In this document: piece after piece, positions 2,225 through 5,766 of the stretch
Numbering within the stretch: the first letter of the stretch is position 1
How the letters are laid out: each line of letters opens with the position of its first letter
Translations under genes and position numbers: made by a program
Source of the DNA: Archaeoglobi archaeon
Lineage (GTDB): Archaea; Halobacteriota; Archaeoglobi; Archaeoglobales; Archaeoglobaceae
NCBI GenBank assembly: GCA_029259345.1
Contig: JAPDIX010000001.1
Coordinates: 1-40,395 of the forward strand
Direction: 5' to 3'
Length of the DNA: 40,395 nt
The notes under the pieces: model-generated
Database searches by the model: none
What the model saw: the letters and a program-made list of their open reading frames with translations, nothing else
What the model was told of the DNA's origin: nothing

Positions 2225-2610
2225 CTATTTTTGCCGCCGAGCATTATTGCACCTAACTCTTTTATGTACCCAGATTGGAATTATATCTGCATTGCGTATA
2301 TACTCATTCTGGATGCTTTCATGTGACTCATGAATTACACTATCCATTAAATCCAGTGGACTTCTAATCTTACTCAAATTATTATTGCTCATACAAGTAT
2401 AAATCTCTGTCGTTTTGGAACGTTTATAACCTAATATCTCCTTAATGCACTGCATATCCACATCGCTTTCAAGCAGATGGGTTGCAAATGAATGCCTCAA
2501 GGAATAGTTAACCCTTCTTTCTTTATTCCAGATTTATCCCTTGCATTCAAAGATTGCCTGAACTTCTGGTTGAGAACGGCCCGCCTTTTCCCTGTCTCTA
2601 AACCAACCAC
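2225..2610 (-). pseudogene. tyrosine recombinase (XerC/D-like integrase), truncated and frameshifted
   Basis: The C-terminal part reads SLRHSFATHLLESDVDMQCI then LGYKRSKTTEIYT, the box II HxxR region plus catalytic tyrosine of tyrosine recombinases. Upstream, a different frame encodes KFRQSLNARDKSGIKKEGL, the stretch that normally joins directly to SLRHSFATH. The two halves are out of frame by one base near 2500-2515; the first frame stops at 2497-2499. The N-terminal SAM-like domain and the first catalytic arginine region are missing, because the frame is closed beyond about 2610. This is therefore a dead remnant. It supports the view that this block arrived as an integrating element. Confidence 0.75.
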
Positions 2611-2612
2611 TC

Positions 2613-2667
2613 AAAGCCCGCCATATCCCGGTGAGGCGGGCTTTGCCAAAGAAGCCCGCTGAGGAGG
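2613..2667 (+). promoter_or_regulatory. two mutually exclusive hairpins ahead of the ArdC-like gene RBS
   Basis: AAAGCCCGCC (2613-2622) pairs perfectly with GGCGGGCTTT (2635-2644), a 10-bp stem with a 12-base loop. The 3' arm can instead pair with AGCCCGC at 2653-2659, giving a 7-bp stem that ends one base before the Shine-Dalgarno GAGGAGG (2661-2667) of the gene starting at 2675. The two hairpins exclude each other, which is the layout of a switch or attenuator. The pairing is seen directly; regulation is inference. Confidence 0.45.
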
Positions 2668-2674
2668 TTTTGAT

Positions 2675-3535
2675 ATGTATCCTGGGGTATCAACCCGAAA
2701 AGAAAGGATAAGGGAAGCGATGGAGACCGTGCTTAAGGCTTTCGAGTCAAATCCTGAGAAGGTTGCCCTTGCCATTTTCCGTGGAAATGGAAAGCCATCA
2801 GACAGCTGGAGCTTCTTCAACCGTCTGATAATGCTGATGAATGAAACAGCAGACGCAAGAGGGTTCAGGCAGTGGCAGAAAGCTGGCAGGAAGGTTAAGA
2901 AGGGGGCAAAGGCGTTCTACATCCTCGCCCCTGTGAGGAAGAAGGTTCCGGTGAGGGTGAGGAAAGTTGAGAAGGTTGTTGTGGAGGGGGAAGAAGTTGA
3001 AATGGAGGTTGAGGAGACGGTAATGGTTGAGAAACTCGTCAGCTTCAAACCCATACCAGTTTTCCGCTACGAGGATACAGAAGGAGAGCCTCTGCCAGAA
3101 AAGAGGTTTGATTTCGAGATCCCATGCGAGTTCAGAGGCATTGTTGAGGAACTCAATCTGAAAGTTGAGACTGAAGCCTTCAGAAACTACTACGGCACCT
3201 ACAACCTCAAAACCAGGGTAATCAAGCTCGCCTCTCCAGAACTCATCGTTTTCCTGCATGAGCTGTGTCATGCTGTTGACGACTACCTGCACGGCATACA
3301 AGGAGGTCAGATTCCGTTACAGGAGGTTGTTGCAGAATTCGGTGCTGCCGTCATAGCCTTTTTGCTTGGATATAGAGTACCGCTGGGAAATGTTAAGGAG
3401 TACATCGAGAGCTATGGATTTGTCAACCTCTTCAAGGCCTTCGCGAGGATAGAGAGAGTTGTTGGATTTGTGATTGAGAGAACAGCAGGTTTTGAGTCTG
3501 AAACTACTTCAGAGCCTCCCTTATGCAGTCAATAA
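2675..3535 (+). CDS. ArdC-like protein: ssDNA-binding-type N-domain plus zincin metallopeptidase
   Basis: A 286-residue protein. Residues about 10-90 resemble the ArdC N-terminal domain (NRLIMLMNETADARGFRQW, then GRKVKKGAKAFYILAPV), known from plasmid antirestriction protein ArdC, which binds ssDNA. A charged Val/Glu-rich linker follows. Residues about 185-235 hold a zincin motif, ELIVFLHELCHAVDDYLHG (HExxH), and a downstream EVVAEFGAAVIAFLLGY that supplies the usual third-ligand glutamate. Such proteins ride on plasmids and conjugative elements and are thought to protect incoming DNA. The start ATG follows GAGGAGG at 7-base spacing. The 3' end overlaps the convergent gene by 32 bases. The protease target is unknown. 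Confidence 0.8.
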   Translation: MYPGVSTRKERIREAMETVLKAFESNPEKVALAIFRGNGKPSDSWSFFNRLIMLMNETADARGFRQWQKAGRKVKKGAKAFYILAPVRKKVPVRVRKVEKVVVEGEEVEMEVEETVMVEKLVSFKPIPVFRYEDTEGEPLPEKRFDFEIPCEFRGIVEELNLKVETEAFRNYYGTYNLKTRVIKLASPELIVFLHELCHAVDDYLHGIQGGQIPLQEVVAEFGAAVIAFLLGYRVPLGNVKEYIESYGFVNLFKAFARIERVVGFVIERTAGFESETTSEPPLCSQ

Positions 3536-4099: not shown

Positions 4100-4339
4100 C
4101 TAAAACAGATCCTCGATCAGTTCTTTTTTGCTAATTCCAATGTGCTCAGCAACATCCTTTAGAATTGAGTTTAGTGTTCCGGGCTTTAACGCCTTGTGTT
4201 TTGGAATTGTTATGTGGTGTTCTCCGCCAAGCATAGTGGTCAGCCTCATGTGGCTTCCCGTTCGCCTGGTAACTTCGTAGCCATACTTTCTGAGGAGCTT
4301 AGCCAGTTCTTCACCACTTATATCTCTCGGAAGTTTCAT
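4100..4339 (-). CDS. hicA: HicA-type mRNA interferase toxin
   Basis: A 79-residue protein with the full HicA pattern: ELAKLLRKYGYEVTRRTGSH, with the conserved GSH containing the catalytic-type histidine, then HHITIPKHKALKPGTLNSI and a C-terminal helix. HicA toxins have a dsRBD-like fold and cleave mRNA on translating ribosomes. It overlaps the upstream hicB by four bases (ATGA at 4336-4339), so the two are translated together. Antitoxin-first order is the less common order for hicAB but is well known. Length is normal for the family and nothing appears broken. Confidence 0.88.
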   Translation of the reverse strand: MKLPRDISGEELAKLLRKYGYEVTRRTGSHMRLTTMLGGEHHITIPKHKALKPGTLNSILKDVAEHIGISKKELIEDLF

Positions 4340-4557
4340 AGTGTCAGAACTTCCTGTCTGACGATGTGGAGCCTTATTATTTTCGGCCTTTCTTCTTCAT
4401 CAAAGTGACATTCCACAGCATCCTTCACCATTTCTCTCAACTCTTCGAGAGTGTCAGCCTGAGTGAAGATCGAGTGTCCGAGAGCCCTTGCAGTATAGCC
4501 ATCGTCAGTTTCTTCTACAAGAAAAATGATCTCGCTTATTTTCGTTAATTCCTGCAT
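4336..4557 (-). CDS. hicB: HicB-type antitoxin
   Basis: A 73-residue protein matching the HicB partial RNase H-like fold: EIIFLVEETDDGYTARALG, then HSIFTQADTLEELREMVKDA and a final strand with RPKIIRLHIVR. There is no C-terminal helix-turn-helix or RHH extension, so it is the short HicB form and may repress its own promoter weakly or through the complex. It is the first gene of the pair and overlaps hicA by four bases. The AT-rich DNA from 4558 to 4655 upstream should hold the promoter. Function follows from the family and the pairing. Confidence 0.85.
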   Translation of the reverse strand: MQELTKISEIIFLVEETDDGYTARALGHSIFTQADTLEELREMVKDAVECHFDEEERPKIIRLHIVRQEVLTL

Positions 4558-4655
4558 GTTAAATAGTCTACCTAACTGTAATTAACCTTTCCCTTCAATT
4601 AAATTTTCAATATTGCAAGGGCTCGTAAACAAGCCCTATATGCATGAGTAGGTAC

Positions 4656-5000
4656 TCAACCACAAAAACAGTCGGTTGTGTAAGAATACCCTTTTCTATA
4701 ACTCTTGCCAGATGAAGGGTTGTTTCGCCAGTCACTCAGCGCTTCCAGTTCTTCTTCGACTTCTTCCGGACTTATCTGAACGAGAAGCCCCTTTTCTTTG
4801 GTAATCTCAAACCATTCAGCTAAACTGACGCCTGCGATTCTCGCTGCCTGCTTCAGGCTCTTTTTACCAGTTACATACAGTTCGATAGCCTTCCGTAGTC
4901 TAAGCTCCTTGATACCTTCTTTTATTGCAAGCTTCAATGCCTCATCCCTGCTCACACCAAGCAGTTCTGCAAGGTCATTGATTTCTTTCTCTGCGATCAC
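4656..5000 (-). CDS. UPF0175-like antitoxin, apparently without its toxin
   Basis: A 114-residue protein. The central part LRLRKAIELYVTGKKSLKQA followed by ARIAGVSLAEWFEITKEKGL is typical of UPF0175, a helix-turn-helix family usually found as the antitoxin partner of PIN-domain toxins. The last 28 residues (from SDWRNNPSSGKSYRKG onward) do not look like the family and may be read-through into junk after a deletion. No PIN gene follows, since the next gene downstream on this strand is hicB. GTG at 5000 is used as start; an AT-rich TATA-like TTTAATATTC lies about 27-30 bases before it, suggesting a leaderless transcript. Confidence 0.65.
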   Translation of the reverse strand: MIAEKEINDLAELLGVSRDEALKLAIKEGIKELRLRKAIELYVTGKKSLKQAARIAGVSLAEWFEITKEKGLLVQISPEEVEEELEALSDWRNNPSSGKSYRKGYSYTTDCFCG

Positions 5001-5040
5001 AAATAATATTGGAATCAGGAGAATATTAAAGTTTCTTCAC

Positions 5041-5188
5041 GCTCCGCTCACTCGCTCGCTTGCTTCCGCATCCCGGCATATTGGCTTTTCTCCTTACGGA
5101 CCGGGCTGCCCGAATCACTATGTCCCCTTTGCAGCGATGACAGCCCTGAAAAGCACATAAGCCGGGCACGCTCGCTCGTTCGCTCCGC
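5041..5188 (+). repeat. paired GC-rich CGCTCGCTCG motif copies
   Basis: Two related non-coding copies: GCTCCGCTCACTCGCTCGCT continuing TGCTTCCGC (5041-5069), and CACGCTCGCTCGTTCGCTCC ending CGC (5167-5188). The spacer between them is free of convincing genes. The same motif appears inverted at 1065-1113. Together they sit on each side of the HEPN/ArdC/toxin-antitoxin block. The similarity is seen; the function is unknown. Confidence 0.4.
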
Positions 5189-5234: not shown

Positions 5235-5280
5235 GCACCACCTCCGTTCCAGAACCCGGAACAAAAAACGGAGGTGGTGC
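5235..5280 (+). promoter_or_regulatory. 14-bp perfect hairpin masking the RBS of the gene at 5283
   Basis: GCACCACCTCCGTT (5235-5248) and AACGGAGGTGGTGC (5267-5280) are perfect reverse complements separated by 18 bases. The right arm contains the whole Shine-Dalgarno GGAGGTGGTG of the downstream ATG at 5283. In RNA the closed stem would hide the ribosome binding site. The inner part (GTTCC...GGAAC) offers a smaller competing stem. Pairing is directly visible. A role as a translational switch, or as an element end, is inference. Confidence 0.6.
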
Positions 5281-5282
5281 AG

Positions 5283-5621
5283 ATGCTCGGTTGTGTCGAG
5301 TACTCAGCTGAGTACATCCGCCTTTGGAATTTGATAAGGAGATGCGAGGGTTGCAGGAAGTTCAGAGAGCTCGCTGTGAGGGGAGTTGAAGTCCGCATTG
5401 CAGTTGAGGGAAACAGGGTCAAAATCAGTCGAAGGAAAGTCGGAAATGCAAAGCCCTGCATTGAGGAATGCAACAGGTTCACAGCCGAGGAGAAGATGAT
5501 GTACGATATCCTCCGCTTCCAGGAACTCAAAGAAGTCTATGAGCCACAGGAGATAGATTACAGCGAGGAGAATGCGAGAGAGAAGGCATGGATGAGAATT
5601 GAGTTAAGCTCTTTTGTTTGA
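5283..5621 (+). CDS. small unknown protein, likely element-encoded
   Basis: About 112 residues in a good coding frame from an ATG placed three bases after GGAGGTGGTG; GTG codons at 5274 and 5277 are alternatives inside the RBS and are less likely. It contains a CEGC pair (residues about 23-26: RRCEGCRKF) and KPCIEECNRF further on, four cysteines that could bind zinc. The second half is acidic and helical (FQELKEVYEPQEIDYSEENA). I do not recognise the family. The upstream hairpin is its most notable property. The next 140 bases downstream contain no gene, and then the IS begins. Confidence 0.55.
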   Translation: MLGCVEYSAEYIRLWNLIRRCEGCRKFRELAVRGVEVRIAVEGNRVKISRRKVGNAKPCIEECNRFTAEEKMMYDILRFQELKEVYEPQEIDYSEENAREKAWMRIELSSFV

Positions 5622-5766
5622 TTTCTTTTTGTTTTTGCTGGATTGAACGAATTCTTGAATGCCTAACATTGAAGATTGAAATCTGGATGGTATTAATGTC
5701 TTTTTTACAGAATAAGATAGTCACGAAAAACAAAAATACAAACACAAATAAATCTTATTTCCTGGA

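Follow-up and report, generated by a model that had tools for sequence, protein, structure and literature searches.

What does a long, perfect inverted repeat do when it covers the Shine-Dalgarno (SD) sequence of a gene? The question is raised by a small gene of an Archaeoglobi archaeon, studied here within a window of 40,395 nucleotides (the whole stretch of DNA that was analysed). On the forward strand, positions 5235-5248 and 5267-5280 are complementary at 14 out of 14 positions and are separated by an 18-nt loop (5249-5266). They form the longest perfect inverted repeat of the 40,395 bases and the sole one of at least 12 bp (loops of 3-40 nt); none of at least 12 bp occurs in 15 dinucleotide-preserving shuffles of the window. 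The right arm, AACGGAGGTGGTGC, includes the SD sequence GGAGGTGGT (5270-5278), whose GGAGG ends 8 nt upstream of the ATG codon at 5283. Since the expected 3' end of the 16S rRNA, CTGCGGCTGGATCACCTCC, is present in five congeneric genomes, GGAGGTGGT can be considered a full-length SD of 9 nt, with one G-U pair. The left arm, GCACCACCTCCGTT, mimics the anti-SD sequence, as its ACCACCTCC differs by one base from the 16S anti-SD tail ATCACCTCC, and it is kept in all intact homologues. A perfect 14-bp inverted repeat over the ribosome binding site, with a right arm corresponding to the binding site of the gene at 5283, is what the original prediction had proposed, and both points are borne out. A stable stem containing the SD stands directly before the start codon, as expected for an SD-sequestering hairpin. 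A search of Rfam returned no family at or above the gathering threshold.

We consider it probable that the inverted repeat acts in the mRNA as a translational lock, closed by default, on a gene of a mobile element. This reading is built on complementarity, conservation of both arms, compensatory changes and portability, all of which are visible in the sequence. We infer that the left arm is present in the mRNA and represses the gene: by imitating the anti-SD tail of the 16S rRNA, it would pair with the SD so that 30S subunits could not bind, and the default state of the 112-aa gene would be untranslated, also at the temperatures at which hyperthermophiles live. The hairpin and the leader that precedes it make up a portable module placed before different mobile-element genes of Archaeoglobales, and different structures cover the SDs of other genes of the same elements. 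Such a lock would probably serve to silence element genes, also on read-through transcripts, in a host where the element has settled. The likeliest means of opening would be a factor or a 30S subunit loading on the long leader, or 5' processing that removes the left arm. Against the lock, several copies have decayed, and the gene could be almost unexpressed if no key to the lock exists.

SD accessibility was predicted with RNA energy parameters extrapolated to 80°C. In the window hairpin, the predicted probability that the SD is unpaired is 0.0002 at 37°C and 0.003 at 80°C, and the predicted opening at 80°C is 0.2-4% across the intact copies. For 21 other open reading frames (ORFs) of the window, the SD is predicted to be open at 80°C with a median of 68% and a lowest value of 26%. 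When ORFs with an SD match of at least 5 nt were surveyed, an opening below 0.1 was obtained for 6 of the 30 SD-led ORFs on element contigs and for none of the 12 on control contigs. These six are three intact homologues of the 112-aa gene, an ArdC-like gene in genome G074 and two 113-aa genes; within the window, only the gene at 5283 falls below 0.1. Such predictions, together with the retention of both arms, agree with the earlier suggestion that the stem could block translation. The accompanying idea that temperature may open it fares badly. An RNA thermometer melting at high growth temperature would suit a host family that is probably hyperthermophilic, and at 90°C the prediction for G025 and G022, whose stems are shorter, is an opening of 17-27%. 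However, at this temperature the model still has the stems of the window and of G005 about 99% closed, too stable to melt in the growth range as predicted. With a predicted SD opening of 0.3% at 80°C, compared with the median of 68% for other genes, we reject the thermometer and give it next to no credence.

What is conserved at the locus is the hairpin as such: both arms are kept in all four intact copies, and loops and upstream flanks diverge. The G005 arms are identical to those of the window, with 28 upstream nucleotides that are 43% identical (ungapped) and an altered loop. In G025, G022 and G060, a 9-nt hairpin core is identical and the flanks are at 11-29%. Loops in the relatives measure 17-21 nt and are A-rich, with unconserved sequence. 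Two pairs are changed on both sides, as the original prediction had asked of homologous loci: at pair 8-51, two copies have C-G and four have A-U, and at pair 18-41, two have G-C and one has U-A. The outermost pair is G-C or G-U among copies. The covariation score is 0.114 vs. 0.045 in shuffles (5 of 500 shuffles as high), and the hairpin pairing is equalled in 2 of 500; a count of pairs changed on both sides like this one is ordinary (228 of 500 shuffles), hence covariation in these few, related sequences from draft metagenome-assembled genomes (MAGs) is suggestive rather than overwhelming. Homologues keeping the binding site and losing the left arm, which would have spoken against the hairpin, were searched for and none was found. 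In G006, where the gene is broken, the right arm and the start are lost. A phylum-wide pattern search gave scattered matches outside the family, mostly in other GC-rich genomes and several with an ORF at SD distance. Elsewhere in the family, matches to a 7-bp stem lie mostly away from gene starts.

The gene itself (5283-5621, forward strand; ORF 5283-5618) encodes 112 residues with a CxxC...CxxxC motif, possibly a metal-binding protein. It had been described as an orphan. This is not the case, since intact homologues (about 96, 53 and 49% identity) are found in three MAGs named Archaeoglobi or Archaeoglobales, and truncated remnants in four further genomes (G006, G020, G029 and G030). The protein has no match in Pfam, NCBIfam or PADLOC; the best PHROGs hit of a homologue has an E-value of only 0.099, and profile matches in the PDB are at 0.3 or worse. 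Its AlphaFold model (pLDDT 60) is too poor for a fold search. The neighbours in the window are an integrase fragment, an ArdC-like gene, HicA, a HicB-like protein, a UPF0175 protein and a DDE transposase, and in G022 a tyrosine recombinase stands just 5' of the homologue. We infer that the 112-aa gene is carried on a mobile element; a search for viral, phage or plasmid carriers found none. The ArdC-like anti-restriction gene (2675-3535, forward strand; 286 aa; Pfam ArdcN, phrog_7245) would belong to the same element. HicA, HicB-like and UPF0175 genes lie at 4100-5000 on the reverse strand, between the ArdC-like and hairpin genes; in G005, a further small gene, which looks PIN-like by eye, comes after UPF0175. 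Downstream of the 112-aa gene, ATTGAAATCTGGATGGTATTAA (5676-5697) recurs behind the G005 and G030 copies and is a possible element end or terminator.

Upstream of the hairpin, a conserved leader domain (5072-5166, forward strand) can be folded into a three-way junction that is closed by the stems CCCGGC/GCCGGG and GCUUUUC/GAAAAGC and contains two inner arms. Among 394 genomes of the phylum, it precedes the hairpin in seven, all of one family. The closing stem is nearly invariant; the inner arm varies in sequence and keeps its pairing, and the decayed copy of G030 fits the fold less well. RNAalifold saw no covariation in the leader because the MAFFT alignment misaligned the inner arms, and each copy was therefore folded on its own. 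In every copy the reverse strand gives the more stable fold, probably owing to composition, and the domain may act on either strand. One inner arm (5103-5146), GGGCUG-CCC-GA-AUC..GAU-GA-CAGCCC, resembles a kink-turn. This assignment is weak because the arm is restricted to the near-identical copies of the window and G005; 4 of 200 shuffles are as good, and it is lost in the G006 pseudogene copy and absent from G025 and G060. G012 and G030 (L066, L067) have in common an arm, GGCGTGCTTTTTTGATGAAATAAGG..AATAAGCACGCC, inserted in the domain. Of two other views of the leader, a coding sequence was discarded, as copies have no common reading frames, and an Frpo-like single-strand promoter is no more than a weak idea.

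Leader and hairpin can be regarded as a portable module because in G060 they stand before an ardC-like gene, now decayed. A decayed gene follows the module in G030, the G012 contig ends within the hairpin, and G022 keeps the hairpin without the leader domain. The best TATA-like site (5025-5032, forward strand), a putative promoter by simple consensus match, lies just 5' of the leader. In the module copies also, the best such sites precede the leader rather than the loop, so the left arm is probably contained in the mRNA. The original prediction had named a transcription start inside the loop as the case that would leave this arm out; the copies have no good TATA-like site at the right distance, 24-30 nt before the loop, which speaks against this case, although a start there may still occur.

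Other genes of related elements have structured start sites as well. The ardC-like leader (2609-2677, forward strand) can form a kink-turn, with the bulge GGT at 2630-2632 and GA at 2633-2634 and 2661-2662. The SD of the gene, GGAGGT (2663-2668), is in the C-stem. A competing upstream helix (2612-2622/2635-2645) ranks second in length among the perfect inverted repeats of the window. The arrangement CC-NNN-GA, helix, GA-GG is common to the ardC-like leaders of nine relatives and corresponds to a strict kink-turn, with two helices separated by a 3-nt bulge and then tandem G-A pairs; 0-13 of 300 shuffles fit as well. GGAG(G) is the 3' strand of the C-stem, which has two contiguous base pairs in the window copy and up to eight in G002. 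An RNA covariance model, with a short calibration, located the same kink-turn leader in four genomes (G022, G025, G021 and G060; L157, L162, L159 and L163, near 1501), where it stands before a gene for a 46-aa zinc ribbon, and all four leaders have the kink-turn arrangement. In these leaders, pair 6 of the inner helix changes from G-C to C-G and pair 7 from C-G to U-A, and the competing arm changes in step, from AGCCCGC/GCGGGCU to AGCCGCC/GGCGGCU, as counted by script without shuffle control. Because one strand retains pairing with two alternative partners, the pattern looks like that of a bistable switch.

In Archaeoglobus fulgidus, L7Ae represses its own l7ae mRNA by way of a kink-turn whose C-helix includes the SD (PMC6298567, PMC5539422). 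Since the ardC-like and 46-aa leaders share this layout, their repression by L7Ae is the obvious hypothesis and they are candidate switches. They differ from the l7ae leaders in serving mobile-element genes, in having a competing upstream helix and in a C-G pair at -1b:-1n; because of this pair, protein-free folding may also differ. The hairpin at 5235-5280 likewise hides an SD, as do L7Ae-repressed archaeal l7ae leaders, but it is a plain stem that would close without protein.

A further structure is found in G005, where a 113-aa gene about 2 kb 5' of the ardC-like gene has a 13-bp hairpin over its SD (L062:2264-2306; also L132, L130, L146 and L147), unrelated to that of the 112-aa gene. Four of the five copies have perfect SD stems of 12-15 bp, and the fifth has a G-U pair and a mismatch. 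Upstream sequences are largely unrelated among copies. The broken G006 copy shows a G-C to A-U change in the hairpin, and covariation among the 113-aa gene hairpins does not exceed that of shuffles. In G074 (L143:1704-2652), the ArdC-like gene starts with the hairpin CCACCTCC-CCATT-GGAGGTGG, 8 nt before the ATG. This gene is directly 3' of a cas6-looking gene (by eye), and the 130-aa gene after it also has an SD hairpin, of 8 bp. A 9-bp SD hairpin was also observed in G068 (L068:290-330) on a 386-aa gene with a signal-peptide-like start, which has no known link to an element.

How the lock would be used can be read in other ways. Concerning control, the main rival is a leader that senses: the domain at 5072-5166 would bind a ligand or a protein, perhaps L7Ae through the arm at 5103-5146, and open or close the SD hairpin. 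The near-invariant closing stem and maintained inner-arm pairing in seven genomes, as well as the neighbouring ardC-like leader resembling a bistable switch, are in its favour. However, a search for an alternative pairing freeing the SD of the hairpin found none, G022 has the hairpin without the domain, and the restricted kink-turn-like arm and uncertain strand weigh further against it; we see such a switch as possible but rather unlikely. Ribosome standby would use the leader differently, with a 30S subunit waiting there until the closed SD opens transiently; alternatively, a nuclease would remove the left arm. The tisB toxin mRNA of E. coli has a similar layout, with a structured 5' element, a single-stranded stretch (here pyrimidine-rich, CACGCUCGCUCGUUCGCUCCGCUC) and a closed ribosome binding site (PMC7708055). 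Yet tisB is a bacterial chromosomal toxin gene of unrelated sequence that requires the bacterial protein S1 (PMC7708055), and the stem at 5235-5280 is very stable, which makes standby or processing an unlikely account.

As to purpose, the main rival is that the hairpin serves only against read-through: the native mRNA would start between the arms, with its SD free, and transcripts coming from outside would be silenced via the left arm. Transposase genes of IS10 and IS200 are silenced in this way on transcripts entering from outside. The presumed mobile-element gene, with copies in unrelated contexts, and the persistence of hairpins despite wholly different upstream sequence are compatible with this reading, as is a TATA-like TTTATAAC in G068, 19 nt 5' of the left arm, which would place the mRNA start in the hairpin. 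The module copies, with no good TATA-like site at the required distance from the loop, speak against it, and it would make the long conserved leader purposeless; we find it quite unlikely. Finally, long palindromes near starts are often operators, and a dimeric repressor could bind the repeat as double-stranded DNA. Arm spacing varies with the loops (17-21 nt in the module), stem lengths differ and both arms are confined to the SD and its complement, all of which renders an operator very improbable.

The translational lock thus preferred has relatives among mobile elements. The transposase mRNAs of IS10 and IS200 have a structured 5'-UTR and low expression. A mobile-element gene is likewise held low by mRNA structure at the start site in the case of the ISPpu9 transposase (PMC8450116). 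Here, in contrast, accessory genes are concerned, with several different structures on related elements. Frpo sequences of plasmid leading regions (PMC11541004) are also foldable conserved elements 5' of genes of anti-restriction type, but their stem carries bacterial -10/-35 boxes, and the stem considered here showed no clear promoter of archaeal type. The fluoride riboswitch of Thermococcus kodakarensis is likewise a 5' leader from an archaeon with a presumed effect on translation, and was in 2021 the only experimentally determined natural archaeal riboswitch (PMC8241225). SD sequestration is already known; what seems to be new is its repeated occurrence on mobile elements of archaea, as well as the kink-turn leader.

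A wider picture can be drawn, tentatively and with more doubt than confidence. At least three unrelated SD-covering leaders would silence element genes of Archaeoglobales (ardC-like, 46-aa, 112-aa and 113-aa), one being a bistable kink-turn switch read by host L7Ae, and these genes would be expressed in just one particular situation of the element, for example when it enters a new cell. Established switches at the RNA level are few in archaea, the L7Ae leaders being another case besides the riboswitch. If the present reading is true, archaeal mobile elements would silence accessory and anti-defence genes at translation, compact, heat-stable parts would become available, and the 112-aa, 113-aa and 46-aa proteins would be candidate establishment or anti-defence proteins.
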